A DNA stretch of 64,000 nucleotides, taken from the NCBI GenBank assembly GCA_024195265.1, contig JAJLRJ010000003.1, positions 31,162,143-31,226,142 on the forward strand, written 5' to 3'. Made by a program: the position numbers and the translations under genes. The notes beneath the pieces are model-generated. The model ran no database searches. It was not told the DNA's origin and saw only the letters and a list, made by a program, of their open reading frames with translations. This stretch comes from Dendrophyllia cribrosa. Its lineage: Eukaryota; Cnidaria; Anthozoa; Scleractinia; Dendrophylliidae. Positions 6,073 to 58,972 of the stretch are shown one piece after another. Position 1 is the first letter of the stretch. Each line of letters opens with the position of its first letter.

Positions 6073-6106
<34 letters not shown>

Positions 6107-6120
6107 GGGGGGGGGGTTTA
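6020..6120. repeat. Poly-G and (GA)n microsatellite
   Basis: A G-run near 6040-6050, an (AG) tract of about 20 bases at 6075-6096 and a second G-run to about 6116. No gene. These runs flank CTTAATAAAGAGGGG and CTTATTAGAG, which echo the ttaatagagg words of the minisatellite that begins at 6531. Confidence 0.7.
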
Positions 6121-6530
6121 TAATAGAGCGCTCACGTGACTTGCTGTGAAAATCAGGATAGATAAAATCGCAAACTTGTTGCCCTGTGCTGACTGACGTT
6201 ACCACAAGTTTAAAGCTCTAGTCCAATATCAAAATATAAATTCTCCTTTCTTGTCCCTATACATTCCTTACAGCAGTAGCAGGTAGAAGTTGTTAAAATA
6301 TCAGGAGAATTCCTCTTCGGCGATCATATCCTTAATTCTCATGACCTCTCTGATTGATTAAACTTTGATATTACAAGGAGAAATTTGATGCTGATCACTA
6401 CTAGGGCATCAAGGGGTTAACGGACCACTGTGATCGTGGATAGTAATTGCACGTTAACGAATGTACGTTAGCCTTTACATAAAAAATGAGAAAAAATACA
6501 CCTTGCTTGTTGATTTACACTAAAGATATA

Positions 6531-8336: not shown

Positions 8337-9551
8337 CAGTCAAACCCGTATTTAACGGACACACTAGCATAGAGCTGTCATACTCCCAGACATTCACTCA
8401 ACAAAAACTATGAGTCGGTTAATTAAACGAAGTCTAACTCAGACCCCGGTTTAAGACAATCAATGGACCTCCACTTCTGTTTATAAGCAAGTCATTTTAA
8501 GTGCATAAATGTTTTTCTACTTTCCTGTGATATTGTTTAGTATTCTGTACGAGTTGGTTCTAACTTTTGAGACTGGATAAAATCCAAAAGTGTGACCATT
8601 CAAATGAAAGCTATTGAGCAGTACTTTCCTGTGGTATTGTTTATTATGATGTACAAGGTGGTTCTAACTTTTTAGTCTGTGGATAAAATCCTAAAGTGTA
8701 ACCATTCAAATGAAAGCTATTGAGCAGTACTTTCCTATGGTGCTGTTTATTATGCTGTACAAGGTGGTTCTAACTTTTGAGTCTGTGGATGAAATCCTTT
8801 AGTGTGACCATTCAAATGAAAGCTACTGAGCCGAGTACTTTCCTGTGGTACTGTTTATTATGCTGTATAAGGTTGTTCTAACTTTTGAGACTGGATAAAA
8901 TCCTAAAGTGTGACAATTCAAATGAAAGCTATCGAGCAGTACTTTCCTGTGGTATTGTTTTATTATACTATACAAGGTGGTTCTAACTTTTTAGTCTGTG
9001 GACAAAATCCTTAAGTGTGACCATTCAAATGAAAGCTACTGAGCAGAGCAGTACCCCCGGGGCGGGGGGGGGGGGGGGGGGGGGGCTACTCCCTTATATA
9101 CGCTATATAGGTATGCGCCACCCGATAGGGTAGGGTTTTTGAGGTGCTCAGTCCTTAAATAGGGTATCCTTTTTGGTATTTTTGGTATTGTAATCCTTAG
9201 ATATTCCATAGATAGGGTCACTGAATTGCAGTACCCACTCTAATGCGCAAAACGAAAAAGATATGGTCTGTTAAAACTGTACTACACGCCTGAATTGGAC
9301 CTTAAAAGGGTATCAAATCTCGATTTTCTACCCTTAAATAGGGTCAGGGTTTAAGAGCCTTGGCGGTGCACACCTATCCTAAATTGTCGGGAGTACCCCC
9401 CGGGAGCAGTACTTTCCTGTGGTGCTGTTCATTATGCTGTACAAGGTGGTTCTAACTTTTGAGTCTGTGGATAAAATCCTAAAGTGTGACCATTCAAATG
9501 AAAGCTATTGAGCAGTACTTAATACATGCCATTTTAATACAGGTTTGACTG
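8337..9551. mobile_element. TIR element carrying ~105 bp minisatellite
   Basis: Termini CAGTCAAACCCGTATTTAA (left, preceded by TA) and the complement of CAGTCAAACCTGTATTAAAA (right, followed by CA, so one TA flank looks mutated). Inside are six copies of a ~105 bp unit containing ACTTTCCTGTGGT, GGTGGTTCTAAC and CCATTCAAATGAAAGCTA, starting at about 8519, 8622, 8729, 8837, 8939 and 9411. The array is interrupted by the MITE at 9055-9404. Tc1/mariner-like by TA/CAGT ends only. Confidence 0.65.
9055..9404. mobile_element. hAT-like MITE, 8 bp TSD AGCAGTAC
   Basis: A 350 bp insertion in the ~105 bp minisatellite. It starts CCCCGGGG with a long G-run and ends CCCCCCGGG. The target duplication AGCAGTAC is exact at 9047-9054 and 9405-9412, and joining the two flanks restores the normal minisatellite unit. 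Internal words (CTTATATACGCTATATAGG, CCTTAAATAGGGT) are AT-rich repeats. An 8 bp TSD fits hAT-type transposition; no transposase is encoded. Confidence 0.8.
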
Positions 9552-9920: not shown

Positions 9921-12900
9921 CTAGTGAACAATCGTTATCAAAGGCGTGACCAAGGCAATATGAACGGTAAGACTAAGCCAAAAATACCAAGCGATAGCTC
10001 CACTTGACCAGGCTAGGTATGGATCGCTATCACCAGTGATGAAAGACCACACATCTCCCTTGTACACCCCGGACGGGCTCATTTCAGCATCCACACGCCA
10101 GTAATACTCTTTTTTAGGATCCAGATTTATCTTTAGGTGGAAGACGTTGCCCTCGTTTTCAACCAACCCACGGTACTCCGGTGAGTGTGGCGTGGCTCTG
10201 CTTACCCCCTCTCTGCTAGTGCCAAAATACACCCGATGAACCGATGCTCCGTAAGCATTCAGCCACATTAGAGTGTCCCTCCTGTCCGGCTTAATGTTCA
10301 CACTGTTATCCGAGGGGACAGGGGTGCTTGTCTTGTAAAGCTGACGCCCTGGAATCCAATAGTGCGTCAATTCGGGGTCATAATTATACGGTCCTGCATT
10401 TTGTTGTAAGTACGTTGAATTGGACAGAGGCCGAAAATCGAAGTTGTCTGGATCAGCAAGCTGCTTGCTGACATTCGAAATCACGTTGTACTTAACGACA
10501 CGTCCCGCGAGCGGGTACAACTTCCCTCCGTGTATGCCACCGTTCGCTACATCAGCCGCATTGTACATGACCACACTATCATTGTTGATGGGCACAGGAT
10601 TTTCGCGCACGTAGCGTAAGACGCACAGAGCGCATTTTGATCTTTGATGGTCACCATGCTTTTCGATCCGCTTCTCAAAGACTAGGTTGTGTAGCACCGT
10701 GTGGTAGTCTCCTTTAACCATCATTCCGCCGCACTTCCAGACCACGTTGCTTCGTAATGTTCCGTTACGTCCAATTCTAGGTGGTTGCCCGTCAAACCGT
10801 AGTCCATATTTGGGACTGGAATGTACCCAGTTTTGCTCTAACAGCGCATGCGTCTGAGGCCCTATCATGGTTTGGACGTGACTGCCGTCATTCTGTAAAA
10901 AAAAAACACAAGCACGCCGTGGTGTTGAAAGAACGGATAAGTTTATCCAAAGAACTAGAAGTAATCACAGATTAAAGTGCGTCGCCTTAGGTACCTCGTT
11001 GTGACATGGCATTCGCGTTTCAGGCATGTTTCTGGTTCAAAACAAGCGCTAAGTATGCGGGATACTATTGTGACGTTTTTCGACGAGCTAAGCATGCTGG
11101 ATACTATTGTGACGTTTCAAGATGGCGCAGATTTGGTACCGACACTTTTCTCGATTCTTTCCGTCTAGACGACGCGCTAAGCATGTTGGATACTATTGTG
11201 ACGTTTCAAGATGGCGCAGATTTGGTACCGACACTTTCCTCGATTCGTTCCGCCTAGCCTACAAGATTAGGAAGCGTCTCCTTCGTCGACGCAATAAAAT
11301 GCAGCATTAATAAATAAACAAGATACTACAAAAGCGCTGTGATCGGTTGAAATCCATTTAGAATAATTCAAAAGAAACACAGAAAATGACAGTAATCACG
11401 GGGTTGGGATGGGGGGACAATTATCGTCCTTATTCTTTAAAATTCACGTTGCCGCAAAACAATGTGGAGTAGTTTGATTAACGGAGTTTTCACATACAAA
11501 AATGACTGGTTATTTTCTCGGGATGAAAAAAGGATTGTAATAACGGGATGGTCGTATTGCGTGGTTGGGGGGGGGGGGGGGGGGGGGGGGGAGAGGGCGC
11601 TTAATACGAGAGTTTCTACTGTTTTACTGTATATTGTAAGCTTTTCTCGTTTTAGCAAACTAATATTTTTTAAGTTTAACCTAGAAATTCCATCGATGGG
11701 CTAGGAATTCCTCTATTAAGTGGGAGATACATCTAAATGCCATTCTTTCGTTACTTGAGATCGGTTTAGGAATTATCTCGTCAACGTCTTAAAGAATCGA
11801 AAAATGCAATCACAGGTTTGTAGACGAATGTTATGTTTAACATTTTGTGACAGAACAGTGGCGTATCCAGTCTCTATCGTAAAAGAGGTGGGGTGGGTGG
11901 GGGGCATTTGTGGGGACTAATCGGGACTTATCGGAAGGGGGGAGAAGGGGTGGGGAGGGGGGGGGGGGGTCTCCCTAGATTCGCCACTGCTGTGTTGTGC
12001 CGTAATTGACGTTTTTATTTTCCGCTCTTCTTGAGTTTCTGTGAGGACATTTTCCTACTCATGCCCGCGGATGAGTAGATAAAGAACGATCACTCCCATG
12101 ATATATATTAAACCATTATACCATATATAACTAGCAGTAATCATAGATTAAAGTGCGTCTCCTTAGCCAACTCGTCTTGACACACCTGCGTAGGGCATCG
12201 GGGAGAGGAGAACTGGGCAGAGGGTGGAGGAGGGCCCCGGGGGAGGGGTTGAAGGACTCTCTTCTTTTTCGCGTGTCGCTCCCCCCTCACGTCCCCTCCC
12301 TGTTTACGCCTGCCACGCAGGTTACCCAGTTTCAGCCATTCCCCCGTTTTTCCTAATCCACGTCGTTCCCCTTCCAGCACCAGCCTTCTATTTCTCTTTG
12401 GTTGATATGTACAGGGGAACCCCGATATGACAACGACCCCAGTATAACGAATGATATTCCTCAGCCCATTAAGCCCATTTATAGTAAAATGTATGGAAAA
12501 GAACTCCGATAAAACGAACCCTTGTTATAAGGAACATATTTTCCCAGACCCTTTGTACTTCATTATGTCGGGGTTTCACTGTAGTACTTCCAAGAATAAT
12601 TGCAACAATTATTTGTTGTATATGGATCAGAACTGTTTATTGTCAATGAGATTTGAATGAATGACTTACTTTAATTTATTAAGAATGAATGAATTTTTTT
12701 AATTTAAAGTGATCAACTAAATCTTGTTTATTGTGTAATTTAAAAAACTTTTAAATGTAAGTGTTATTGATGTCGATTTACGCCCTGCTAAATGTTTTTG
12801 TTCACCCGTAGTGTAATCATCTCGCAAACATTGTGGTTATTGTTGCGGATGCGTAAGAAACAGCGTGACAGCTGCGTTACCTTTATAGAGACGGAACCGG

Positions 12901-15900
12901 TTCGCATTTGCTCAGCTACATGCAAATATATCTGGAAAATTCGAATAGTCATAAGCGAATAACATTAAATATTTGACATACAGGGCAAGCAGCAGCACAG
13001 ATGTAATAAAGATGATGTGATTCAAACGTAAGCTTACTCGATCTTCGATAAATCTTAACAAAATCACAAACAAATCGAATTTTATTTAGTAAAGCAATAA
13101 AGCAAACAAAGGACCGTCTATATTTTTAATGGCAACAACAGCGAGCAAAAATTGAATGCAAACAGAAAAGAAATCCGCTGCAGCCAACCATTACTTTACT
13201 TGCAGTAAGACAGAGACCGGTTAATTGTCCAGGTTTCCGTACCTTTGAAAAGCAAAGTCTCTTTTATGCGCCACATATCAGTGCAATCCTGATATGTTGT
13301 TTAACGGCGTTTAAACAACTTCGTAGGTCTTGTAGTTGTCGAAGCGCAGCAAAGAAGGTGCGCGGGCAGGGCAAAGAGGCGCCCTCGCGCTGGGTATGCT
13401 GGATGCTGGATACTATTGTGACGTTCCAAGATGGGGCAGAAATGGTACCTATGTTTTTTTTTTCGATTCTTTCCGCTTGGAACAAATGTCACAGGACACC
13501 CAACACCAGATTAGGAAGGGTCTCCTTCGTCGACGCAACTCAGGCGGTGTGCGTCACGAGATTTGACCAATAGCAAGCCGTTGTTTAAACAATAGTCCTC
13601 CCGGCAAACAAGAAGCTATTTTAGCGCGTGGAGTTGAAAAAATTGTTCCTTTTCAAGGATTTCAGCGATGTCAATTAAAAATATTTTCAGGCAGAATTAA
13701 AGAGAAATATCCCTTCTTCGTTATGGCTACAATTAAATGTTACATTCGAGCACAATGACTGCCTTAGCTGATCTCAAAGTAAACCTACTCGGTTCAGTTG
13801 CCACATTATCGTAAACTGAACTTTCACACCTTTTCTTAGACTTCTCATTCCTTTACACGTTTGTTTTTCGTCAATAAATTGGGACATACAGTTAATTTAG
13901 CCTTTCTTCGTTGAGAATTTCGGGGTCTACCCGGGTCTACCCCTTTTAGTTTTCTTGGTTGAAGCCGTTCAAAATTGATAAGTTCACCAAATCGCCTAGG
14001 TCTCCTGGTGAGTAACAATAATTTTCTACGCCCACGCGGCGGTCACGCGCGTCCTTTATCATCTTCTTGTTTGATCTTTTTTCGGCCTTTTTTTCCTCAA
14101 ATATAGTTGAAGGAAAAAAACATTCAAATTTTTATAGGTTTTGATGTTCAAAGTGACATCTTTTGTCGGCGTTTGCAGCGTTTATTCTGTATAATACGTG
14201 GAGCGGTCTTTGCGTGATTTAGGTCTCGTGGCGTTGATCCGTGCGTGAATTTGATCTTTCCGGTTGTCTTGTTTATTAACGGATTGTATGTTTCGATTCA
14301 AATCAGAATAGTGTCTCTGAGAAAAAGAAAAGCCGGCCTTTACGAAGTATTTTTGCGTTTGTAGACTTGTATATTTGATTACTTTACCAAAGAAAAGGCG
14401 CTAGATTTAAATTCTGGCTAAATAACGCCAACGTAGGAGATGCTCACTCCGTCGAGACGAAGGGAAAATGAGCCGCTCCACAAATTAACCCGTGGGGCAT
14501 TGCAAGTCGTGACGCACACCGCCTGGACGCAACTATTGTGACGTTTCAAGATGGCGCAGATTTGGTACCGACACTTTTCTCGATTCGTCTCCTTCGTCGA
14601 AGCAAAAATATATGGAACAACTGTTTTTCATAATCAGAGCCAACCGTTATGACTCATGACTATTGAAGAGCGTTTGTGATGTAACAGCTATGGTTCTCAA
14701 CCTCAATAAACGGAAATATTTTCATTTCCAAGTACTGGAGAAGTAAAACTGTCATGGATATGCGCTCTCAAAGGGTCTCAATCTGGTGAAATTTTTATGA
14801 GCATCGACGAGAGTTCTTAAAGAAGGGCTTCGATATCACTTACCTGTATAAGGCCCCAACACTGATGATGTAGATGGTTGAGTCGCACGGTAGGTCGCAG
14901 TCCAGGTCTGATTCCACTGCTAGCTCCATTGTATCTAAGAGTGTTCCTCACGTACACATCACCTACTCCATAAGAGAGAATGGTGCTTATACCACCACCC
15001 CCTAAAACATCGTTAGCTGCCGTCCAATCGTTATACTCGAACAAATTGTTGTCAAGAGTCACGTTTAATCCACTATACTCCAATACGGCGCCGTCCGTGC
15101 CGAAAAACGTGTTGTTGAAAAACGTCAGAGTGTTGACTTCCGTCTTTTTGATATCTGCGTTCACTTTGGTCCACTGAGCCGGCGCTGCCACTTGAAGCAT
15201 GCGCCGTGTGTATGAAGGGTAGCTAAAGTTAAGCGAGTTGAACGTCAGGTTGTTGATAAAGTTATTCTCGGTGTCCAGTGTAGAGGCCCAAAGTGTTGTT
15301 CCAAAGAAGGTCAGTTTTTGGAAAATCACGTGACTGCAGTCGGTAATGTTAAATGCATACGTCATCACTTTACCTCTGACGTCACGTCCTTCGGGGGATT
15401 GGCCATCAGGTGTCATAACGTACACTGTCTGTGTTGCTTTGTCATAAAACCACTCCTCAGGTTGGTCAAGAAACTCCAACTTATCCTCCAGGAAATACTG
15501 GTTCATAGCAGGAATAAACTTGATAGGACCGAAAGTGTCGTGATACATGAAGGATGGAGTACCGGGCGTGTGGCGCTGAACAATGGCGTTGAATGTGTTA
15601 AAGCTTCCAATATTAAGGATTGCCACGGCTCCTGTTGCGTTCAGACCACTTCCTGCTAAGTTCTTTAGGCCATTGTCTACCATGACGCCTCGTGTGGACT
15701 TGTTCGATGATTTTGCCCAGTAACTGGAATTGAAAACTGTTTTATCGGACCACAGTGCATTTGGCCAGCGCGCATTGGTCATCATTTTGCTATCAATGAA
15801 TAACTGCCAGATGTCTTGATCTATGACTGCCTTGTATGCACCGCTATCATCCTTTACCCATCCCCCCTTGGGTTTTAGCTCAATGGTGCCATCAATGATT

Positions 15901-16181
15901 GGATACTCATCTTCAAGTCCCCGGATGACCATGGGCTTGTCAGGGGTGCCATGCTTGTTAGTAACAGTCACGTGTTCATGGTAACGGCCTCCCGGGATAA
16001 GACACTCGTCGCCAGGCTGACTCAGCTTATCAATACAAGACTGAATGCTGGTAAAAGCAGGAGAGGGCTGCCGCACATGTATTGTATCCAGGATATTGGA
16101 ATTGCCATAAACAGTACCCAGTAAGGAAATACACACCAAGGATACAAACAGAAGTGAAGATTGTGTCGTATCTCGAGTCAT
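9921..16181 (-). CDS. Secreted parallel beta-helix protein, copy A (2 exons)
   Basis: Exon 1 is 14844-16181 (446 codons, ends CAG/GTAAGT); exon 2 is 9921-10892 (acceptor TTTTACAG), joined in phase 0 to give 769 residues. Residues 1-26 are a signal peptide (LLFVSLVCISLLGTVYG). Residues about 30-600 look like a right-handed beta-helix of polysaccharide-lyase type: PGDECLIPGGRYHEHV, then KPMVIRGLEDEYPIIDG, then many N-x-x-F/L repeats and N-glycosylation sequons. Residues about 634-733 are an Fn3-like module (VHRVYFGTSREGV, YYWRVD, GDVWSF). A hydrophobic tail (about 738-769) suggests a GPI signal or membrane anchor. Substrate unknown; PL6-like lyase or glycan-binding role is inference, and I cannot assign catalytic residues. 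AATAG/GACGTC six bases before the ATG could be an acceptor from a 5' UTR exon. Confidence 0.8.
10952..11300 (-). mobile_element. Helitron-like non-autonomous element, copy 1
   Basis: Present in the intron of copy A and absent from the matching intron of copy B, where CCAAAGAA runs straight into TAAAATACAG. Read on the minus strand it begins TTGCGTCGACGAAGGAG after an A and ends GATTACTTCTAG before a T. It shows no target duplication and has a small hairpin (TAATC-TGT-GATTA) just before CTAG. A|T insertion, a CTRR end and a 3' hairpin are Helitron hallmarks; the 5' end is not the usual TC and the stem is short, so the class is tentative. It contains 2.5 tandem units of about 89 bp with ACTATTGTGACGTTTCAAG and a YY1-like AAGATGGCG. 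Confidence 0.5.
11300..12128. other. Intron of copy A, shared with copy B
   Basis: No coding sequence. Much of this stretch aligns by eye to 27060-28140 in the other duplication unit (for example GATACTACAAAAGCGCTGTG at 11322 and 27081). It holds a G-run at about 11568-11590 and a small GC-rich element at about 11860-11995 bounded by CAGTGGCGTATCCAG and GATTCGCCACTG. Its counterpart at 27865-27985 in copy B shows that it predates the duplication. Confidence 0.6.
12412..12581. mobile_element. Mariner-like MITE
   Basis: TA-flanked, 170 bp, with imperfect inverted termini CAGGGGAACCCCGATATGAC and the complement of CAGTGAAACCCCGACATAAT. CAGT-AACCCCGATAT termini with TA duplications are characteristic of widespread Tc1/mariner-derived MITEs. 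No coding potential. Confidence 0.65.
13541..14525. mobile_element. TIR element with 9 bp TSD (MULE-like)
   Basis: 985 bp between exact 9 bp direct repeats GACGCAACT (13532-13540 and 14526-14534). The termini are 19 bp perfect inverted repeats, CAGGCGGTGTGCGTCACGA. A 9 bp duplication fits Mutator-like elements, but some other superfamilies make 8-9 bp duplications too. No transposase frame is present. It interrupts a Helitron-like repeat unit. Confidence 0.7.
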
Positions 16182-16697
16182 GACGTCCTATTGAGAAAGA
16201 CAAATGAGACAAAATACATAATTAAACAGTTAAGAACAATTGAAGGTAAAGTCACGTGATCAATAGTCTTTTCTTGAGAGACAGGTTGCAAACATGCGTA
16301 ATGTGAAATTTCTACTGCATTTTTTTCTTAGCCTTTTCGTGGGCGAGTGCTGGATTTAGTGTTTGGTCGCCATTTTGGTTTTGCACAACGTCGGGGGCTG
16401 GAAGGAGTGAAAGGGGGTTAGGAGGGTGATGGAGAAGCTATCCCCCGGCCTTCCCCCTCTTTCGCCTTCCAGCCTGACTCCCACACTCTTGGTCGCATCT
16501 TTTGACTCGCCTCAGTCTGCGGTTTTTAAAACGCAGCGCTCGTTCGTCCCCCAAATACGCCTGCTTTGGAGGCTATTTTTTCTGGGTTGGCTCACTGATG
16601 CGCGCCTTAGAGATGTATCCGCCTTATGAGAGTCACCGCTTTGATAAAACATACTGTATGATGATCTTATTCTACAGAAATTCAATACTACTCCCCC
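16182..16697. other. Upstream flank of copy A
   Basis: No gene. Shared with the other unit: 16182-16490 aligns to 29981-30262, and 16490-16697 aligns to 36775-36972. The two matches are separated in unit 2 by the 6.5 kb insertion. A GC-rich stretch near 16380-16460 may include 5' regulatory sequence, but no core promoter motif is convincing. Confidence 0.5.
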
Positions 16698-24560: not shown

Positions 24561-24570
24561 TGTGAACTAG

Positions 24571-24848
24571 AGCGGTTTTCATTTGAGTGTCATTAAGCCA
24601 AAAACCAAAGTTATTACTCTGACTAATCACAAAACACGTCGCCAGACAATCCAATGAACCAATCAGAACTCGAAGCAAATACAAGTTGACGGCGCCAAGC
24701 GCGGAAAAACGCGTGTGACCAAGTCACAATTAGGTTTGATATTACTTCTGATTGGTTGATAAAGCGGCGCGAGATTTTTTAGCAAATCACAAAGCATAAT
24801 AATGCGAAACCAAACCAATCGCGAAATTACTTTCGACAATTGAAAAGA
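24571..24848 (+). repeat. CCAAT-rich MITE family, copy 1
   Basis: One of four copies in the window (also 47044-47299, 50978-51227, 58741-58972). Shared words are AACCAATCAGAACTCGAAGC, GCGGGAAAACGCG (here GCGGAAAAACGCG), GGCGCGAGATTTTTTAGC and CAAATCACAAAGC. This copy has left end AGCGGTTTTCATTTGAGTGTC and right end TTTCGACAATTGAAAAG, an imperfect inverted pair. It carries several CCAAT and ATTGG words. Non-coding. Confidence 0.7.
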
Positions 24849-26024: not shown

Positions 26025-27270
26025 CTAGTGCATAACCAGGTACAGTGATGTTACCATAGTAACGTGAAAGTTACGACTGAGCGACAAATTCCAAGCGATA
26101 GCTCCGCTTAACAGTGTAAGATCGCTATCACCTGTGATGAAAGACCACACATCTCCCTTGTACACCCCGGACGGGCTCACTTCAGCATCCACACGCCAGT
26201 AATACTCCTTTTTAGGAACCAGACTTATCTTTAGGTGGAAGACGTTGCTCTCGTTTTCAACCAACCCACGGTACTCCGGTGAGTGTGGCGTGGCTCTACT
26301 TACCCCCTCCCTGCTAGTGCCAAAATACACCCGATGAACCGATGCTCCGTAAGCATTCAGCCACATCAGAGTGTCCCTCCTGTCCGGCTTAATGTTTACA
26401 CTGTTATCCGGGGGGACAGGGGTGCTTGTCTTGTAAAGCTGACGCCCTGGAATCCAATAGTGCGTCAATTCGGGGTCATAATTATACGGTCCTACATTGT
26501 GCTGTAAGTACGTTGAATTGGACAGAGGCCGAAAATCGAAGTTGTCTGGATCAACAAGCTGCTTGCTGACATTTGAAATCACGTTGTACTTAACGACACG
26601 TCCCGCGAGCGGGTACAACTTCCCTCCGTGTGTACCACCGTCTGCTACATCAGCCGCATTGTACATGACCAAGCTATCATTGTTGATGGGCACAGGATTT
26701 TCGCGCACGTAGCGTAAGACGCACAGAGCGCATTTTGATCCTTGATGGTCACCATACTTATCGAACCGCTTCTCAAATACTAGGTTGTGTAGCACCGTGT
26801 GGTAGTCTCCTTTGACCATCATTCCGCCGCACTTCCAGACCACGTTCCTTCGTGATGTTCCGTTACGTCCAATTCTAGGTGGTTGCCCGTCAAACCGTAG
26901 CCCATATTTGGGACTGGAATGTACCCAGTTTTGCTCTAACAGCGCATGCGTCTGAGGCCCTATCATGGTTTGGACGTGACTGCCGTCATTCTGTAAAGAA
27001 ACCACAAGCACGCCGTGGTGTTCAAAGAACGGATAAGTTTATCCAAAGAATAAAATACAGTATTAAGAAATAAACGGCAAGATACTACAAAAGCGCTGTG
27101 ATTGGTTGAAATCCATTTAGAATAATTTAAAAGAAACACAGAATAATCACGGGGGTGGGAATTCTTTAAAATTCACGTTGCCGCAAAACAATGTGGAGTA
27201 GACTGATTAACGGAGTTTTCACATACAAAAATTGTTTTTTTTCTCGGGCTGAAAAAAGGATTGGTCGTAT

Positions 27271-27579
27271 TGGCCACTCCGAAAAATACCATAATACTCT
27301 TTTATGTGCAGGCTCAGCCTCGCCGGGGTGTAATTATTCAAGTCTCCTTTGTTAGAATGGCACAATGGAATTCAGAGTACATGTAGGAATGCTAGGACGT
27401 AGCATTGTGTCTTCGCATACAAATGTGCACCGTATGCAAATTTCTACGAAGTTGAAGCATAGCACGTGCAGTTCGTGCTGAAAACAAAAGAAATTGGAAA
27501 AATGAGGCTTACATCGAGTACCACCCAAACCTGCACTTTAAAGAGTATTATGGTATTTTTAATCGTTTCTGGAGTGCGC
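27271..27579. mobile_element. MITE in copy B intron, absent from copy A
   Basis: About 309 bp with inverted arms AAAATACCATAATACTCTTT and its complement, and outer CACTCC/GGAGTG. Copy A's intron has GGTCGTATTGCGTGG uninterrupted at about 11548. Flanking duplication is not exact, so superfamily is open. No coding frame. Confidence 0.6.
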
Positions 27580-27602
27580 AATTGCGGGATTGGGAGGGGT
27601 GC

Positions 27603-27634
<32 letters not shown>

Positions 27635-28365
27635 ACGAGGGGTTCTACTGTATCTTGTAAGCTTTTCTCGTTTTAACAAACTAATAGTTTTTAACTTTAA
27701 CCTAGAAATTCCATCGATGGACTAGGAATTCCTCTATTACATCTAAATGCCATTCTTTCGTTACTTGGGATCGGTTTAGGAATTATCTCGTCAACGTCTT
27801 AAAGGATCGAAAAATGCAATCACAGGTTTGTAGACGAATGTGTTTAACATTTTGTGACAGAACAGTGGCGTATCCAGTCTCCATCGTAAAAGAGGTGGGG
27901 TGGGTGGGGGCATTTGTGGGGGACTTATCGGGGGGGGGGGGGGGGGGGGGGGGGGTAGGGGGGCTCCGTAGATTCGCCATTGCTGTGTTGTGCCGTAATT
28001 GATGTTTTTATTTTCCGCCCTTCCCGAGTTTCTGCGTGGACATTTTCTTACTCACGTCTTCGGATGAGTAGATAAAGAGCGATCACTCCCAGGATATATA
28101 TTAAACCATTATAGCATATATATAAATACATCATAAATATATACCATAATATAAATATATCATAATCAGAGCCAGCCGTTATGACTTATGACCATTAAAG
28201 AGCGTTTGTGGTGTAACAGCTGTCAACCTCACTAAACGGAAATATTTTCATTTCCAGGTACTGGAGAAGTGAAACCGTCATGCATATGGGCTCTCAAAGG
28301 GTCTCAATCTGTTGTAACTTTTATGATAATTGACGAGAGTACTTAAAGAAGGGATTCGATATCAC

Positions 28366-28801
28366 CAAGAGAGGATGAACTAAGAGAAAACTAAGATTGA
28401 AGAAACACATGAATATTTATTGAATATACTTTTTAATGATATTCCTGTGATTTTTACATATTTTTATAATAATTAGTTTTTTCATTGATGTTTATTTTTA
28501 TTTATTTATTTATTACTGTAGTGATGTATATTTTTTATTTATTACTAGGAGATCCTTAATATAGGGTTAACCTCTGGGTTTCCTTTTTCATTATATCCAT
28601 TCTAGGTATTTTGAAATAAAGTATTGTATGTAGAACAAATCCCCCATACATGGGCCTCTTTCAATGATAATTTTTTTTCAATCTATTTTTAGCGCGTAGT
28701 CATACTGCGCGGCTATTTTAAGGAAGACACCTGATTGGTCAGTTGTAATGACGTAATGAAATTTAAGAGTTGGCGGCTTTGCTGTTCTGGGCCCCATTTC
28801 T
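28366..28801. other. 436 bp replacement segment in copy B exon 1
   Basis: Identity with copy A stops at CGATATCAC (28365) and resumes at AAAACATTG (about 28802). Between them copy A has 162 bp of exon and donor and copy B has 436 bp of AT-rich sequence including TTTATTTATTTATTTATTAC. No inverted termini or target duplication were found, so it looks like an indel or gene-conversion scar, not a clean transposon insertion. Confidence 0.7.
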
Positions 28802-29980
28802 CAAAACATTGTTAGCTGCCGTCCAATCGTTATACTCGAACAAATTGTTGTCAAGAGTCACGTTTAATCCACTATACTCCAATACGGCGCCATCCGTGCC
28901 GAAAAACGTGTTGTTGAAAAATGTCAGCGTGTTGACTCCCGTCTTTTTGATATCTGCGTTCACTTTGGTCCACTGAGCCGGCGCTGCCACTTGAAGCATG
29001 CGCCGTGTGTATGAAGGGTAGCTAAAGTTAAGCGAGTTGAACGTTAGGTTGTTGATAAAGTTATTCTCGGTGTCCAGTGTAGAGGCCCAAAGTGTTGTTC
29101 CAAAGAAGGTCAGTTTTTGGAAAATCACGTGACTGCAGTCGGTAATGTTAAATGCATACGTCATCACTTTACCTCTGACGTCACGTCCTTCGGGGGATTG
29201 GCCATCAGGTGTCATAACGTACACTGTCTGTGTTGCTTTGTCATAAAACCACTCCTCAGGTTGGTCAAGAAACTCCAACTTGTCCTCCAGGAAGTACTGG
29301 TTAATAGCAGGAATAAACTTGATAGGACCGAAAGTGTCGTGATACATGAAGGATGGAGTACCGGGCGTGTGGCGCTGAACAATGGCGTTGAATGTGTTAA
29401 AGCTTCCAATATTAAGGATTGCCACGGCTCCTGTTGCGTTCAGACCACTTCCTGCTAAGTTCTTTAGGCCATTGTCTACCATGACGCCTCGTGTGGACTT
29501 GTTTGATGATTTTGCCCAGTAACTGGAATTGAAAACTGTTTTATCGGACCACAGTGCATTTGGCCAGCGCGCGTTGGTCATCATCGTACTATCAATGAAT
29601 AACTGCCAGATGTCTTGATCTATGACTGCCTTGTATGCACCGCTATCATCCTTTACCCATCCCCCCTTGGGTTTTAGCTGAATGGTGCCATCAATGATTG
29701 GATACTCATCTTCAAGTCCCCGGATGACCATGGGCTTGTCAGGGGTGCCATGCTTGTTTGTGATAGTCACATGTTCATGGTAACGGCCTCCCGGGATAAC
29801 ACACTCGTCCCCAGTTTCACTCAGCTTATCAATACAAGACTGTATGCTGGTAAAAGCAGGAGAGGGTTGTCGCACATGTATTGTATCCAGGATATTGGAA
29901 TTGCCATAAACAGTACCCAGTAAGGAAATACACACCAGGGATACAAATAGAAGTGAAGATTGTGTCGTATCTCGGGTCAT

Positions 29981-30264
29981 GACGTCCTATTGAGAAAGCC
30001 AAAAGCACAGTTAAACAAATAAGAACGATTGAAGGTAAAGTCACATGATCAAAAGTCTTTTCTTGAGAGACAGGTTGCAAACATGTGTAATGTGAAATTT
30101 CTACTGCATTTTGTTTTTTTGGTGGGCGAGCGCTGAATTTAGTGTTTGGTCGCCATTTTGGTTTTGTACAACGTCGGGGGTTAGGAGGAGGGGGGGGGGG
30201 AGGGGGGGGGGGGAAGAAGCTCTCCCCCTCCCTCCTCCTTCGCCTTCCAGCCTGACTCCTACAC
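29981..30264. other. Upstream flank of copy B
   Basis: Aligns to 16182-16490 upstream of copy A, including TTGAAGGTAAAGTCAC, AGTGTTTGGTCGCCATTTTG and CGCCTTCCAGCCTGACTCC. It is interrupted at about 30265 by the composite insertion. A G-rich run lies at about 30185-30215. Confidence 0.6.
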
Positions 30265-44092: not shown

Positions 44093-44485
44093 TTAAATGA
44101 GTTGATAAGGTAACCGACAAACTGCAAGGCTGATCTGACTACGTAAAAAAGTAGATTTTGCGCGGAGACACCAATACGACAGAAACCGATAAAGCAGGGT
44201 AGCAAACGCGGACAGCTGTTTCGTCCTGTTTGGGACTCGTCAGCGCGGTGTAGCTTGTACAAAACTAAGAACGACTACAAGAAAGCAATCACAAATAGAT
44301 TGCACAATGACCCGTACACAATAATTTGGTGTCTCGCAAAATCTACTTTTTTAAGTAGTCAGATCAGCCTTGCAGTTTAATTTGTCGGTTATGTTTGTTC
44401 ATTTTTTGGCTGATTAGGTCTCTCGTAGATCCTACATATCGTTTACAGCATTATCGTTTGCGGTCCTTTGCAGATTTTAGTTCTT
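44093..44485. repeat. Inverted pair of a dispersed repeat
   Basis: GGCTGATCTGACTACGTAAA (44129, plus) is mirrored by AAGTAGTCAGATCAGCCTTG (44355), with TTGGTGTCTCGCAAAATC against ATTTTGCGCGGAGACACCAA. A third copy lies at 23930-24190. A partial GATAAGGTAAGTTGGCCACCG from the palindrome family is attached at about 44490. Confidence 0.55.
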
Positions 44486-45916: not shown

Positions 45917-46581
45917 TCAATTTCCACCTGAAATATTCAAAGTAATTGACCCCAAAGCATTTGCAATCTGCGTAGCAGCAACATTTTCTCTGGTTGTGGT
46001 TTCACTGGACTGGCCTTGCACTATTTTTGAAACTTTAACTAGTTGTTCATTTGTTTCCCGTTTGTAACTTTGAAGAGCTTCCAATCGATGTCCAGTAACA
46101 CCCCGAATCAATTTGTCGTTTACACCTTCTTGAGACAATCTCGAGACCGCTGTTGCTCGCAAAGAGTGATTAGTGAAATATCCCTTAATTCCAGCTTCAG
46201 CCATCATCATTTTAATCATGGAATTGAGTTTATTATGACCCAAAGGGACAATAGAAAACCAAGCATTGTTACTTTCGTACATTCGCAATGGCTTCAAGTA
46301 AAAAGCTTTATCTAGAGATCCTTCAGGATCACATCGCTCAATATAAGTCTTGACAATTCTTACAACACATCTCTCATGACATTCAACGTTAGCATACGCT
46401 AAGTTCTCGGGCATAATTTTCTATGTTTTAACCCACCCTGGTTCGTTTTACTTACTCCTTCGGAATAAAGTAAATATTCCCTGCCCTCCACATCAGTGTG
46501 AAACGAAAACCTATTTGCACTCAATTTGCGGTGTTCATCCACCGCCTGCGACAACAAATCATCTAAACCATCGCTCATCAT
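45917..46581 (-). pseudogene. Crypton-type tyrosine recombinase, frameshifted
   Basis: Two minus-strand frames belong to one protein. 46399-46581 reads EGREYLLYSEGVSKTNQGGLKHRK; 45917-46414 continues MPENLAYANVECHERCVVRI to the C-terminus. The join is a missing base in an A-run near 46420-46425, after LKHRK. The second part holds the recombinase core: NHSLRATAVSRL (His-x-x-Arg), VTGHR and the nucleophile candidate in LQSYKRE. This arrangement matches the DUF3504/KIAA1958-like Crypton domain of animals. The N-terminal part is missing. I call it a dead Crypton copy; a domesticated gene split by an assembly error is the alternative. Confidence 0.65.
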
Positions 46582-47043
46582 CTCGAATGAACGTTTTTAA
46601 TTCCAAATAACTGGACATATTGGCAGTAAAAGCAATATCGACTAAAGCGTTATGGAACTCAGCTGCTGAACTGAAAGAAAAGCCGACAAACACTAAACCC
46701 CTTGAGAAAAGGCAGATATTCAAATTGTAATACATGAGGGCTGCAAATCCTAACGGGATTTCATACAGTGTTTCTCGACTCTTTAATTAGCAAACCATTC
46801 AAGCTATTCTTGGCTTCCCTTGTTCTAAAACAATGGAAAGGTGCATTAAATCGCATAATGCCCTCGCTCCTCGGCCTCGGTCATTATTTTTAAGAAGGCC
46901 TCGGAGCTCAGGCATTATCCTATATTTACAGTATTGCAAAAGCATTATTATGGACCTCAGCTCTGAAAACAATAGAGCTGCGTGATACTCAGGTCCAATG
47001 AAATTAGAGGTTGTAAAGAGCTGTGTGGCATCTGTGTTTTTAC

Positions 47044-47299
47044 TTGAATGTCGTATAACCAAAACCAAAGTAATTACCCTGACGAATCACAACAGTCACA
47101 GACACTCCAATGAACCAATCAGAACTCGAAGCAAACATATGTAGCCGGCGCCAAGGTAAGTGCGGGAAAACGCGTACGAGTAAATGGTTTTGGTTTTACT
47201 TCTGATTCAGGGTTGAGAAATTTAGCCAATCACAAAGCATAGCAATACCAAACCAAAGCGATCACGAAATTACTTTCGACACTCAATTGACAACTACTC
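47044..47299 (+). repeat. CCAAT-rich MITE family, copy 2
   Basis: Has AACCAATCAGAACTCGAAGC, GGGAAAACGCGTACGAG, TTTAGCCAATCACAAAGC and the right end TTTCGACACTCAATTGACAAC. It lies just downstream of the TPST stop codon, within about 200 bases. Confidence 0.65.
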
Positions 47300-50977: not shown

Positions 50978-51227
50978 AGTAAGTTATTACTCTGACCAAT
51001 CACAGCAGTCGTAAACAATCCAATGAACCAATCAGAGCTCGAAGCAATTACATGTCGGCGGCGCCAAGCGCGGGAAAACGCGTGCGAGCAAGTCACGATT
51101 GGTTTTGGTTTTACTTCCGATTGGTCGAGAAAGTGGCGCGAGATTTTTTAGCCAATCACAAAGCGTTGCAATGAAAAACCAAAGCAATTGTATGTAATAA
51201 CTTTTCACACTCAGTTGAAAACTGCTT
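50978..51227 (+). repeat. CCAAT-rich MITE family, copy 3
   Basis: Shares AACCAATCAGAGCTCGAAGC, GCGCGGGAAAACGCGTGCGAG, TGGCGCGAGATTTTTTAGCC and the right end CACTCAGTTGAAAACTGC. Its left terminus is truncated relative to copy 1. Confidence 0.65.
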
Positions 51228-53304: not shown

Positions 53305-53373
53305 GTGTGATGCTTGACACAAAGTTTCCTATTTTTTTTCCACCAGCTGAAAACTACGATGGCCCAGAAGGGT

Positions 53374-53590
53374 CACAGTTCAGTTGTGATTTTTCACAGT
53401 TCAGTTGTGATTTTTCACAGTTCAGTTGTGATTTTTCACAGTTCAGTTGTGATTTTTCACAGTTCAGTTGTGATTTTTCATAGTTCAGTTGTGATTTTTG
53501 AAACAGTTCAGTTGTGATTTTTGAAACAGTTCAGTTGTGATTTCCCACGTAGTTCAGTTCTGACTTTTCATAGTTCAGTTGTAGTTTTTT
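53374..53590 (+). repeat. Left subterminal 21 bp repeat array
   Basis: Five near-identical tandem copies of CACAGTTCAGTTGTGATTTTT, then five diverged ones (GAAACAGTTCAG..., TAGTTCAGTTCTGAC...). Mirrored at 58275-58450. Likely binding sites for the element's own integrase HTH domain (inference). An apparent open frame through it encodes only HSSVVIF repeats and is not a gene. Confidence 0.9.
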
Positions 53591-53683
53591 TGTTGACGTG
53601 TCAATTTGCCCCAGGTCCTTGTTATTGACATCCGGGCTTCTTATTCCAGAGAAAGCGGGAATTTGAAAATTTCATAACAGACG

Positions 53684-53692
53684 GCCATCTTG
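53684..53692 (-). promoter_or_regulatory. YY1-like site before integrase
   Basis: GCCATCTTG, complement CAAGATGGC, lies about 43 bases before the integrase ATG. A matching AAAATGGCGGGA lies about 60 bases upstream of the HECT gene's ATG (58206-58217). AAnATGGCGG is the YY1 consensus, often near TATA-less starts in animals. Role is inferred. Confidence 0.35.
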
Positions 53693-53734
53693 AAAAGTTT
53701 GAGGTTCCTTAAAAGAAGAAGAGGTCAGTGCAAA

Positions 53735-54946
53735 ATGCCGTTGCCAGTTTACACAGCCTGTATGAATTTAAATAGTGCTGCAGGGGATGATCAATTGGAA
53801 CTGATATCTAACTATTTTAAACAGGGATACACTAACTTAGAAATTCTAGAGTTTTTAAAACTCCACGGAATAACTGTTAGCTTGTCAACTGTGAAAAGAC
53901 GCCTTCGAACCTTAGGCTTCTCAAGACGACCAGCCAATATACCTCGTGATGAGCTGAAGGAGGCCATAGAGAAAGAGCTTGGTGGTAGTGGTTGCTTTGT
54001 TGGCTACCGTAGGCTTTGGGCCAGGCTCCGAAGAAAAGGATATTTTGTAAAGAGATCAACAGTCATGACACTTTTAAGACAGCTTGATCCAGAAGGAGTT
54101 GAAAGTAGAAAAAGGAAGAGACTTCGCCGGAGAACATACCAAGCTAAAGGGCCAAATTACGTTTGGCACATAGATGGTTACGATAAACTCAAACCCTATG
54201 GATTCTGTGTGCATGGAGCCATCGATGGATTTTCAAGGAGGCTTATTTGGCTCGAGGTTGGTCCCACAAATAACAACCCTGAAGTTATCACTAAATTTTA
54301 CCTTGATGCTGTAAAACAAGTCGGTGGTTTACCGAGAAAAGTGAGATCAGATGACGGAACTGAGAACAGCATGGTTGCTGCAGTACATACATTTTTGCGG
54401 TCAAGCCACAATGACGAGGATGCAGGTCTTGGGTGTTTTCTCACTGGCAGGTCCACAGCAAATCAGAGGATTGAGGCCTATTGGTCCCATCTAGCTAAGG
54501 ATGGTCCTGGTTGGTGGATTAATTTTTTTAAAGATCTGCGTGACTTGGGTCTATTTGTTGACTCAGATCCAGTCCATGTTGAATGCATTCGATTTTGCTT
54601 CATGCCTATTCTAAGGAGCGAGCTATATCAAGTGGCAGAATTGTGGAATCAACACAGAATATCATCAAGCAAATTTGGAAACAGCAGTGGTCCACGAGGA
54701 CGACCTGATTGCATGTTTTTTCTACCGCATCTGTACAGTACAGATGACTACAAAACGGATGTAGACGAGGATGACGTTCAGGAGTTCTATGATCACTCCA
54801 CAATGTGTCCACCTGACTATAGTGAAGATTTTAAAGAATTTGCTCTTACTGTTATGAATGAGCATCACCTTCCAGAGCCACACAATGTTAGCTCTGCTCT
54901 TGACCTCTATATGGAACTCCTTAAAGAGGTGGAAGCGTTAACATAA
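53735..54946 (+). CDS. DDE integrase of the transposon
   Basis: 403 residues from ATG 53735 (CAAAATGC); the open frame extends 15 codons upstream but only to a TTG. Predicted to cut and join the element's ends in the nucleus. Residues about 18-65 are a helix-turn-helix (YFKQGYTNLEILEFL ... STVKRRLRTLG). Residues 75-130 resemble the IS3-type HTH_21 linker (GYRRLWARLRRKGYFV) and end in a basic run (RKRKRLRRR). The rve core follows: HIDGYD (D147), VRSDDGTEN (D206), NQRIEAYW (E247), about 40 residues between the last two. Acidic C-terminus (DVDEDDVQEFYD). All three catalytic residues are present and there is no frameshift, so it may be active. Proteins of this type are common in fish and cnidarian genomes. 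Confidence 0.88.
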   Translation: MPLPVYTACMNLNSAAGDDQLELISNYFKQGYTNLEILEFLKLHGITVSLSTVKRRLRTLGFSRRPANIPRDELKEAIEKELGGSGCFVGYRRLWARLRRKGYFVKRSTVMTLLRQLDPEGVESRKRKRLRRRTYQAKGPNYVWHIDGYDKLKPYGFCVHGAIDGFSRRLIWLEVGPTNNNPEVITKFYLDAVKQVGGLPRKVRSDDGTENSMVAAVHTFLRSSHNDEDAGLGCFLTGRSTANQRIEAYWSHLAKDGPGWWINFFKDLRDLGLFVDSDPVHVECIRFCFMPILRSELYQVAELWNQHRISSSKFGNSSGPRGRPDCMFFLPHLYSTDDYKTDVDEDDVQEFYDHSTMCPPDYSEDFKEFALTVMNEHHLPEPHNVSSALDLYMELLKEVEALT

Positions 54947-55164
54947 TTTTTTCCAGAGCAGTTTTGTAACCAAGAGCACGACCTATTGCCACTTTTTGAA
55001 ATTGCACGTCACCTATATTATGTACAAATTTGATTTAAGTATCCCACCTCTCTCACTGAGAATGTAGTCTTTAATAACATATCTCTTAGAAGGGAAGGCA
55101 AGAGTTGTCAAAAATTATCTTCCATCTTGAATTGTCTAATGTGAGTAATGTCATGGTTTTCACA

Positions 55165-55190
55165 AATAAAACAGGAAGAAAATCAATAAA
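55165..55190 (+). terminator. Polyadenylation signals, integrase gene
   Basis: AATAAA at 55165-55170 and again at 55185-55190, about 220 bases after the integrase stop. The opposing gene has its own signal (TTTATT, AATAAA on the minus strand) at 55279-55284, so the two transcripts converge without overlapping coding regions. Confidence 0.5.
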
Positions 55191-55643
55191 AACATCTTAT
55201 AACAGCTTGCCTGGTCACCCACCCTGTAATAAGCACTGACCAGGGATGGAATGAGGACACAAATTCAACAATAACTATTTTATTGAGCAAACGACAATTG
55301 TGTTTTTGTCTACACTGAAATAACTACTTACAGCTCTATGTGTAAGCTACTCTAAATTTTAGAACCGAAAAAGCCTAATATGTACCTAACTAGAGTACAA
55401 TGGTGTGTGAACTGAAACTGGCAAAAGCTATAACTCAACACTTTTAACTTATAGTTTAACCTTAAATCAGAACTTTATACTTGAAATACAACAGACTAAC
55501 ACAATATTCTACCCAGCTTGAAAACATGGCTAACACAGACCTCTGGTTCTGAGGCTACATTAGTTAAAACTACAACAGTATAACTTTGTTGAGAACAGAA
55601 AAATGTGAGATTGTAGGTCATTTCTTGGCCAATTAAGTTTCGT

Positions 55644-58145
55644 TCATACAATATCCATTTCCCAGTTGTCCCGATTAAGAATGTACATGAAGTCTTCCCT
55701 TAACTCCACATAGTTAGCATATGTAGATGGGATTTCTAAAAGGGGTCCACAGGTGTGGGCAATGGGTCTTGCACTCAAGCTCTCAGACTTAATGTAAGTA
55801 ACTTCTATCTTCTTGCTAATCATAATATCCGTAGCTGTTGTAAATCGCAAAAACAGCAGCAGTTTTGGCATCTCCAGACCTCTTACCAATCGCTGCAAAA
55901 ATTTAAATGCATCTCTTTCCCCTTCATTTTGTGGATTTGAGGTGAGACAAGAAAGCACCTTTTTTGTCGTAGGTTTAAGACTATCATAGAAGCCCTCAAC
56001 GGCAGAAATAGTTTGAAACTGGGGATACTGCTTCAACTGCTGTAAAAAAGGTTGCAAAGATGAAATCATGAGATGCGGTTTCTGAACCAGTTCCTGCTTG
56101 GAAATTTCAAGAATGACTTGGCTAAGGTTTTCAGTGTTAACCACCCTTCCACATTTGAATCTTTCAAGAAAATCAGTTAACTCATCTTCATCATCTGGAA
56201 GCTGATTCTTTCCTATAATGTCTACAATGAACTCTTCCTCTACTGGGGATAGGTATTTTTTGAATGAATCAACAAACATGGAATCTGGAACTTGGTTGCC
56301 AAAGAGGCAGTAGCATAAAAACGCCTTTGACAAGAAGGTGGGGAAATAAGATACAGACAAAAACCCTTTAACTAAAATCCTCCCCACAGCCTCCCACTCC
56401 TTAACAAAGTGGTCATGTCTAACAAAGGGAACCCTTTCTCTCTCTCCAATAGTCATAGAGAGAGAAAATTCGCTCCAGAATAAAGTGTACACTTCACGAC
56501 TTACCCCAACACCCACACCCTGTTCAAAATCTCCCTTTTCATTAACCACCTTAAAATCAATATTACAGTTCATTACACTTGGGTCTTTAAAATGTTCGAT
56601 CAATTCAGTTCTTATGCATGATCGGTGAACTGTGAGAACTCTATCTGGAAGATCTCTTGATGAAGAGGGACTTGGAGAATCCTGCTCTACTGAGCCTTGA
56701 TCAAGACTGCAATTCTCTTCATTTGTAAGCCTTGGGGAACTGGTTTCATCGGCCACATTGCTATGTGATCCATCTGCGTCTATTTCAGCCATGCCATTTG
56801 AAAGTACTGCTACACGCATTGATCTTATTTCATCCATAGTTAGGGAGACTGGGGTTTCTGGTGTTTCTGTAGTAGATGGATTCCCTCCATCAGCGATCCT
56901 AGAAAGCTCATATTCTCTGTTCTGCTCACATCGAAGACATTCTTCACCTTCCAAATACGTACAGCTACATACTGAACAAACAACACGCCTACCAGCATCT
57001 GATGTTACCTAAAATAATAATAATAATAATACTGATTTTATATAACTTCACTGCTCGACGCTAACTTTTTTGACACTAAACAGGGGGCTAGTAAGCAAAA
57101 TAAATCACTATTTGAAAAATACAAGTTACAAAAAAGTAAGTGTAGTGAATTTATTTTTGTATGGAACTAATAAGTCTAGAGGCTAGTAGAAGGTCCGAGG
57201 GTCCAATGGAGTTTCATATTGTGAGCCTGATACTTACACCCCAAAAAGTACCTGGCACAAAAATTTCCTTCTCAAAAAATACTTATTTTATTTTATTCAA
57301 TTCAACGAAGAAACATTTCTCTTGAAGATTTGTAAACCCCCCAAAATATGTGGCAGATCTCTTGCCCCCCCAAAATACCAAGGACCCCCCAAATACGTCG
57401 GACCTCCCCATCATGAATATTGCTAGCACCCCCCCCCCCCCCCCCTTGGGGCACTGTAAATTCAAAATAGCACCCTAATACCGAAATACATTGAAAACTT
57501 ACAAAAACAAAAGTAAAAATATTGAAAACTTAGCATTACCTGAGAATCATTCAGGTTGACAGGCGGCGGCGGTTCAAATGTGTCCTCGTCTAGTTGTGAC
57601 AAGAATGTGTCTTGGTGCTGTGATCTTAGATAGAGGTAAGTTGTCGACGGATAAAGACCATTTTCCTTCAAATAACTTTCAATAGTTCCTTCACCAGGAA
57701 AACGAGAAATGGCCATTTGGGTTGTGTCGCAGATATCCAGGAGCATATCGTCAACAGAGCCAGCAAAAGCACTTTTCCCGTCAGGGAAAAACAAAGCAGC
57801 GGCTTTTTGCTTCAGTTCGTGAACTGTGGGAGGCTCCGACGCAGTATAAGCAACAAACCGGTTTCCGCCACCTTTTTTCTGACGAACTGGAACAAAACTC
57901 TCTGACTGCTCGTCGTAATGAATCCAGCGCACTTGGATTCGATGTTCTTTGTCGGTCTTTCTTTTCTTCCCTCTTGACTGACCTCTGATGCGGTCGAGCA
58001 ATCCAGACAGTCGGCTTGCGGTTCGTTGGTTTCCTTCACGGGACGCTGCTTTAGAACTTGTAGAGGCAGATTCAACACGTTCGCTGTTGTTCTGATCCTG
58101 ACGTCTTATTTCCTCTCGTACCGTTTGCCTAATTATCGCATCCAT
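55644..58145 (-). CDS. HECT ubiquitin-ligase-like protein of the transposon
   Basis: Exon 1 is 57540-58145 (CTCAG/GTAATG), exon 2 is 55644-57008 (TTTTAG/GTAACA); joined in phase 0 to give 656 residues. Residues 58-63 are a basic NLS-like run (RGKKRK). Residues 69-176 form a ubiquitin-like or adaptor domain (VRWIHYDEQSESFVPVRQKK). A Cys cluster follows (C213, C216, C218, C226, C229: VVCSVCSCTY ... CLRC), a probable zinc knuckle. An acidic, Ser-rich linker leads to a HECT domain (about 327-652). That domain has FKVVNEKGDFEQGVGVGVSR, then FLSKAFLCYCLFG, and at the end RPIAHTCGPLLEIPSTYANY, where Cys622 is in the classical AHTC catalytic context. It is thus a candidate active E3 resembling the divergent G2E3 type. 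GTG upstream is not used; ATG 58145 is the first in frame. Confidence 0.82.
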
Positions 58146-58274
58146 CGTTAAAACGCCAAGCACTGCCACACAACAACCTCGAAAATCAAGACCTTACCGC
58201 CTTCCAAAATGGCGGGAGAAAACTCGCCTGTCTCAGTTCCCGTATGTTAGGTTCCAGTCTCTTTCGTCCAACCG

Positions 58275-58450
58275 AAAAAATCACAACTGAACTGTGTCAA
58301 AAATCACAACTGAACTGTGAAAAATCACAACTGAACTGTTTCAAAAATCACAACTGAACTGTGAAAAATCACAACTGAACTGTTTCAAAAATCACAACTG
58401 AACTGTGAAAAATCACAACTGAACTGTGAAAAATCACAACTGAACTGTGA
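58275..58450 (-). repeat. Right subterminal 21 bp repeat array
   Basis: Eight copies of AAAAATCACAACTGAACTGTG with TTTC or TGTC joints, the mirror of 53374-53590. The outer end continues into the exact 25 bp terminus. Confidence 0.9.
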
Positions 58451-58740
58451 CCCTTCTGGGCCATCGTAGAAAACAACTTTTGTAAAAATTTGAAATTCAT
58501 GGATACGTTTCCATGACCAAAACACCTCTTTCTAAATTCCATGACTTTTCCAGGCCCGGAATGCAATTTTCAAATTCCATGACTATGTGAACCCTGCTCA
58601 TTTTGGATGGCAATGCACTGCATTGGAGAAAAGTCGTCTGTTCCATTAGCTTATAGGACCTCCAGACTTGAGTAGGAGTACAAGATTGGGTTCCAGTAAG
58701 AATTTCGAATTTCAAACCAAACACGTCCGCAGATGATTAG

Positions 58741-58972
58741 CGCGGTTTTCATTAAGTGTCGTAAAACCAAAACCAAAGTAATCACTCTGGCCAATCACAA
58801 CAGAGGCAGTCATTCCAATGAACCAATCAGAACTCGAAGCAAAAACATGCAGCTGTCACCAAGCGCGGGAAAACGCGATGCGAGCAAATCACGGTTGGTT
58901 TTGATTTTACTTCTGATTGGTTGAGACAGTGGCGCGAGATTTTTTAGCCAATCACAAAGCGTAGTATCAAAG
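58741..58972 (+). repeat. CCAAT-rich MITE family, copy 4
   Basis: Best preserved left end: CGCGGTTTTCATTAAGTGTC. Contains AACCAATCAGAACTCGAAGC, GCGCGGGAAAACGCGATGCG, GGCGCGAGATTTTTTAGCC and CAATCACAAAGCG. The right terminus is lost. Confidence 0.65.

Follow-up and report, generated by a model that had tools for sequence, protein, structure and literature searches.

An IS3EU/GingerRoot-like transposon of a stony coral with a predicted HECT ubiquitin ligase gene facing its DDE transposase

Among described DNA transposons, the closest to the element presented here are those of the IS3EU/GingerRoot type. Complete IS3EU families always have TA..TA termini and usually produce 6-bp target-site duplications (TSDs), and they lack an HHCC motif upstream of the catalytic core, while Ginger1 has a 4-bp TSD (PMC10045372). 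Accessory genes have been reported in this group. For example, the fungal TET-bearing IS3EU families have an alpha-kinase gene that faces the transposase, as described in excerpts of PMC12730594. The Kolobok lineages are likewise DNA transposons distinguished by their accessory proteins, but they have another transposase superfamily and their accessories are nucleases, a helicase and KolX (excerpts of PMC9587614). Here we describe an element in a 64,000-nucleotide stretch (the window) of the stony coral Dendrophyllia cribrosa (assembly GCA_024195265.1, contig JAJLRJ010000003.1, positions 31,162,143 to 31,226,142, forward strand), in which an integrase-like DDE transposase gene is faced by a gene for a predicted HECT ubiquitin ligase. 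The preliminary description knew of no described family with this layout. A place outside the described families is not supported, as the element's termini and target duplication fit IS3EU/GingerRoot.

The whole element is 5114 bp long (53355..58468) and runs from TACGATGG to CCATCGTA, with TACGATGGCCC as the outermost letters at one end and GGGCCATCGTA at the other. Its inverted termini are exact, as had been noticed, with 82 bp identical between the left (53355..53436, plus strand) and right (58387..58468, minus strand) terminal inverted repeats (TIRs). On either side lies an identical copy of GAAAAC (53349..53354 and 58469..58474), the TSD. The preliminary description had the element right but drew each end, at 53354 and 58469, one base too far out. 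The outer C/G match that it included lies outside the element, because it is part of this 6-bp duplication, on which it had not remarked. Within the termini are the mirrored 21-bp arrays it had reported: 10 units on the left (53373..53590, plus strand) with the core AGTTCAGTTGTGA, and 8 mirror-image units on the right (58276..58450, minus strand), both with a spacing of 21 or 23 bp. Every one of the 10 occurrences in the window of an imperfect dyad, TCACA-N7-TGTGA, falls inside these arrays, which are probably binding sites for the transposase.

The transposase gene (53735..54946, plus strand) is intronless and encodes 403 amino acids, with an HTH_21-like N-terminal part followed by an rva_4/rve DDE core. 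Against Pfam, the core matches rva_4 (E 1.1e-34) and rve (E 5.8e-8), and the HTH_21 match of 27.9 bits falls slightly under the cut-off of 28.1. The NCBIfam models for IS481 (E 2.2e-14) and IS3 (E 1.9e-11) are also matched, both under the models' own (equivalog) cut-offs, and a search of the PDB with an integrase profile gave no match at E 0.01. The catalytic residues proposed earlier hold up well: D147 (54173..54175), D206 (54350..54352) and E247 (54473..54475), a DD40E arrangement on the plus strand, are the same in all 24 aligned rows, and all three are present in 112 of 120 relatives by pairwise alignment. The position of D147 also agrees with IS3EU/GingerRoot, where the first catalytic Asp lies 100 to 300 residues from the N terminus. 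Taken with the TA..TA termini and the 6-bp TSD, the IS481/IS3-related core fits an IS3EU/GingerRoot-type element, a placement based on these sequence features. Ginger1 was considered and is ruled out by the 6-bp TSDs.

The facing gene is read on the minus strand from an ATG at 58145 and encodes 656 amino acids in two exons, one of 202 codons (57540..58145) and one of 454 codons plus a stop (55644..57008), separated by a 531-bp GT-AG intron (57009..57539). The two genes are thus convergent, as first described, but only the transposase gene is uninterrupted. The HECT catalytic domain occupies 55647..56642, with the catalytic Cys (C622, in an AHTC context) encoded at 55749..55751. Upstream of it in the protein are a CxxCxC...CxxC motif (56928..56978), probably a zinc site, and an N-terminal domain (57603..57953) with a predicted beta-grasp, or ubiquitin-like, fold; all of these features are on the minus strand. 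The Pfam HECT model scores only 16.0 bits on the window protein against a cut-off of 23.9, so the identification was made through relatives and fold instead. At E up to 0.1 the model matches 25 of 26 aligned rows. Two relatives match it across both lobes (P0255, 39.8 bits; P0241, 39.1 bits), two others match under the cut-off (P0268 and P0261), and two have no match at E up to 0.01 (P0001 and P0242). Searches of the PDB gave five weak matches at E 0.09-0.21 with one profile (A1), four of them HECTs, three weak matches at E 0.19-1.4 with another (A3), one of them a HECT, and nothing with P0255 as a single sequence. The predicted model of the window protein has the two-lobed HECT fold, with a predicted local distance difference test (pLDDT) value of 55 in the block containing C622, and the Cys is kept in 124 of the 125 homologues that cover the site, among 148 rows. 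Cys conservation and predicted fold thus bear out the HECT domain proposed from the AHTC context. Known HECT E3 ligases such as UBR5 and HUWE1 share this predicted catalytic fold and Cys context. The identity to them is about 15% over the aligned fold, however, and the N-terminal beta-grasp domain and zinc-like motif set the coral protein apart. By its modelled fold and C-lobe catalytic Cys, the protein is a predicted HECT E3 ligase.

Could the HECT gene instead be a single-copy host gene, with termini and integrase around it by coincidence? The genome (627 Mb in 22 contigs) was searched with the element's terminus, a query that skips common words and therefore gives lower bounds for paired ends, which were found at several sites. 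Fifteen terminus-matched regions were read, and 10 have both termini, making 11 complete elements with the window. All 11 have TA..TA termini, as did the query that found them, and all 11 hold both genes in convergent orientation. This is the co-occurrence between the same termini at many loci by which the preliminary description proposed to assign the HECT gene to a mobile element, and the assignment stands: the arrangement is not due to chance, because 10 more complete elements of the genome show it too. In the stretch read of each of the other five regions (L018, L019, L021, L022 and L023), at least one terminus and at least one gene are missing. Eight elements, including the window's, occupy different sites and form a first family. 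They are 99.2 to 99.8% identical to one another with mostly private changes, and in some of them one gene carries a stop or frameshift. The second family has three complete elements, whose transposase and HECT exon 2 share 66% and 54% identity, respectively, with those of the window. Nine of the 11 elements have perfect target duplications, that of L010 matches at 5 of 6 bases, and none was seen in L009; in the first family, 6 of 8 elements have perfect 6-bp TSDs of differing sequence. The element is recently mobile. No support for a host gene was found, and the near-identical copies at different sites with their differing TSDs leave this explanation a negligible probability; multicopy mobility rules it out.

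Searches with each protein give a wider view of the pairing. Over the whole genome, 73 HECT matches fall into 57 loci and 109 transposase matches into 101 loci, the transposase query having scored only 103 of 732 candidates. HECT and integrase genes lie within 6 kb of each other in 23 pairs, against a random expectation of 0.13, and all 23 are convergent. These are not independent events, since 11 of them are copies of the two families, and by the same measure 34 of the 57 HECT loci and 78 of the 101 integrase loci are partnerless. The pair count is nevertheless a lower bound, because direct comparison revealed partners at L026 and L029, which were unpaired in the searches. Six further HECT loci were read out of about 20, mainly the closest and most open ones. 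These are 25 to 41% identical, some being near-copies of one another, and four are already among the 23 pairs. A convergent integrase is present at all six, whole at L025, with stops at L024 and in pieces at L026-L029, and the catalytic Cys is visible in the printed ends of all six. L028 is a complete element in its own right, with a 22-bp exact TIR, the TSD GGAGGT and the ends TACGG..CCGTA.

The pairing is also indicated in other species, where adjacent gene names point to the same arrangement: LOC114515611 (HECT, P0068) and LOC114515612 (integrase, P0149) in Dendronephthya, and gene1011 (HECT, P0242) and gene1012 (integrase, P0166) in eukprot. HECT and integrase rows (148 and 120, respectively) lie on contigs of exactly equal size in 7 cases, against a control mean of 1.14 and maximum of 6; at 5 kb or more there are 5 such coincidences against 0.04 in the control. 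The nearest named proteins come from Stylophora pistillata, Oculina patagonica and other cnidarians. Among the matches listed (120 rows for each protein), the named HECT relatives are cnidarian and the named integrase relatives include the oyster Saccostrea. In the scans made of viral contigs, no relative of either gene and no such array pattern was seen, and prokaryote genomes and phages, scanned with the integrase only, held no relative of it.

Agreement between the histories of the two proteins, a check proposed at the outset, was obtained in part. Protein identities across all 8 pairs correlate with r 0.53, a value reached in 1679 of 40320 permutations. Without one doubtful pair (5507), excluded post hoc, r rises to 0.87 (4 of 5040 permutations). 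An earlier set of 7 pairs, which included the window's and 5507, gave a weak correlation (r 0.41, 777 of 5040 permutations). The 5507 pair is one of the equal-size contig coincidences; its proteins are discordant, and it may be due to chance. Eight integrases in a tree of 112 have a known HECT partner. Seven of them fall in one 41-row clade, which includes an octocoral and has a Shimodaira–Hasegawa-like approximate likelihood ratio test (SH-aLRT) value of 88; the eighth is from the 5507 pair. The HECT-partner label shows no more clustering than after shuffling (8 changes against a shuffled mean of 7.8), in a tree where unlabelled rows may also have a HECT partner and the HECT query favours near kin. 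The HECT-partnered integrase of L025 is 54% identical to P0178 and 44% to the window's, closer to rows outside the 41-row clade, and this implies that the pairing is wider than the clade. A long partnership of this kind is what might be expected if the HECT ligase acted on its own transposase, through turnover or release from DNA, so as to limit or time transposition, a reading to which the facing genes of related elements are also relevant.

Selection on the two genes can be viewed at two time scales. Between the families, the transposase has a nonsynonymous divergence (dN) of 0.22 and a synonymous divergence (dS) of 2.7 (dN/dS about 0.08), and the HECT gene has a dN of 0.32 with synonymous sites saturated. 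In the aligned set, the HECT protein and its relatives have an identity of 0.60 in the N part of the catalytic domain (25 of 25 rows) and 0.27 in the linker (23 of 25); over all covering rows the values are 0.56 (138 of 148) and 0.37 (65 of 148). These figures are read as a sign of long-term purifying selection. For the recent copies, private changes were counted in the 8 near-identical elements (the window's, 55644-58145 for the HECT gene, and L009-L015). The HECT gene has 27 nonsynonymous changes, 1 stop and 2 synonymous changes, a synonymous share under the expected 28% (P 0.004), and the transposase has 6 nonsynonymous and 1 synonymous, with 8 columns at an indel in L014 left out. The preliminary description had suggested looking for a HECT dN/dS below 1; between families the ratio is blurred by saturation, and the recent copies show no purifying selection. 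This last result, together with the copies broken by a stop or frameshift, would suit a functionless passenger that was captured once and then carried along. Transposons do capture gene pieces, and many integrase loci have no HECT gene among the matches listed. However, open frames and catalytic residues are kept across families whose HECT exon 2 differs by 46%, and the near-universal catalytic Cys and uniformly convergent layout also speak against it. The conserved catalytic site strains this reading, which we regard as improbable.

What else can stand in the facing position is seen at integrase loci without a HECT partner, four of which (L030, L031, L032 and L033) were read out of the 78. 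L033 (308-7152, contig C12) resembles an IS3EU element, with an exact TIR of 141 bp and TGTACA at both sides, its precise border being unsure because TGTACA is a palindrome. Its integrase is a diverged rva_4 (23.5 bits, slightly under the cut-off of 26), faced by a convergent alpha-kinase gene (5668-6969, minus strand; Pfam E 3.3e-30). Seven rows of the transposase genome search, L033 included, have an equal integrase score. At L030 (400-3822, contig C2) an integrase is convergent with a Ser/Thr kinase (Pfam E 1.1e-33), and no element ends were found for it. Upstream of this kinase, on the same strand, is a stretch that resembles the N-terminal domain of the HECT protein (E 9e-8 against the window's domain in a search of that locus alone; of the 30 other family members, at least 24 match it at E up to 1e-3). 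No such stretch was found in L031-L033 with the window's domain as query. The L033 alpha-kinase protein was also compared with the N-domain directly, and a shared domain was not supported (hhalign score 11.9 against a mean of 12.3 and maximum of 18.5 in 60 shuffles). L031 has no clear facing partner gene in the locus read, and L032 is half masked.

These kinases, together with those of the fungal elements, suggest that the facing place generally holds protein-modifying enzymes. The fungal TET-bearing families resemble the coral elements in further respects: the ends TAYGG..CCRTA (TACGG..CCGTA in L028, TACGATGG in the window), a 6-bp TSD, a TIR of more than 30 bp in the window and an accessory enzyme that faces the transposase. 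They differ in that their accessories are an alpha-kinase and a TET dioxygenase, as given in excerpts of PMC12730594, where the window has a HECT ligase; yet L033 has an alpha-kinase as well. It may be that IS3EU elements have a dedicated locus, opposite the transposase gene, in which protein-modifying effectors (HECT ligase, Ser/Thr kinase or alpha-kinase) can be exchanged, that at least two of these effectors have an N-terminal targeting domain in common, and that the superfamily acts on its host by post-translational modification much as viruses do. We consider the case for this generalization evenly balanced.

The element itself is best explained as a cut-and-paste transposon of IS3EU/GingerRoot type, with a DDE transposase read from the left end and a facing two-exon HECT ligase from the right, and we lean slightly towards a ligase that acts on a host limiting factor. 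The transposase would bind the 21-bp terminal arrays and move the element. The ligase would accept ubiquitin from a host E2 and transfer it to a nuclear protein selected through the N-terminal beta-grasp domain and zinc motif. The most likely target would be a host factor by which the element is silenced or limited, and ligase action on it would favour expression or transposition of the element. Alternatively, the own-transposase target introduced above is a distinctly less probable but serious reading. In its favour, L030 has the N-domain-like stretch upstream of another kind of enzyme, where a module that docks the transposase might lie. Against it, kinases occupy the same place in relatives, and no homology to the N-domain was seen in the alpha-kinase protein of L033. 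A host target, whether for counter-silencing or licensing, is preferred because of those kinases. This preference is a judgement by analogy. A shared N-domain would suit a host or a transposase target alike.

No HECT-bearing IS3EU element was found among the matches listed in full-text literature searches; Repbase lay outside the search, and an annotated entry may exist there. Papers that mention HECT together with DNA transposons do so incidentally, judging by their titles and the opening of their abstracts. The main text of PMC10045372 contains the word 'ubiquitin' 0 times. A full-text search combining alpha-kinase, transposon and ubiquitin found nothing, and one on G2E3, which is of the HECT type, and transposon gave no description of such an element. 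In fish, some unclassified repeats have blastx matches to G2E3, 'a ubiquitin-protein ligase' (excerpts of PMC5638112), and these are perhaps of the same kind as the HECT-bearing element. Two other leads were set aside on the basis of excerpts: the coral miniature inverted-repeat transposable elements of PMC2872659 are TTAA piggyBac derivatives and unrelated, and G2e3 in PMC9243025 is only a heat-related gene. If the reading given here is true, a cut-and-paste element could act on host proteins through the ubiquitin system, and its kinase-bearing relatives point to a rule that holds generally in the superfamily. Near-identical recent copies with open genes make the ligase role testable in a heterologous assay. 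Care may also be needed with annotation, as multicopy 'HECT domain-containing' genes in cnidarian genomes may be transposon genes.

The window contains several other features. A type I hammerhead ribozyme lies at 44205-44249 on the minus strand (Rfam, 51.1 bits), and a tyrosine recombinase fragment with DUF3504 and Phage_integrase matches at 45917-46420, also on the minus strand. Self-comparison revealed tandem arrays at 6558-7968 and 8518-9520, the repeat units being about 85 and 105 bp long. In a duplicated block (9921-16486 and 26025-30264), the two longest pieces show about 94% identity and other pieces 81-88%, and one open reading frame has a weak GH141_M match under the cut-off. Immediately to the right of the element is a dispersed repeat (58738-58966), with further copies at 24568-24838, 47036-47281 and 50981-51226.

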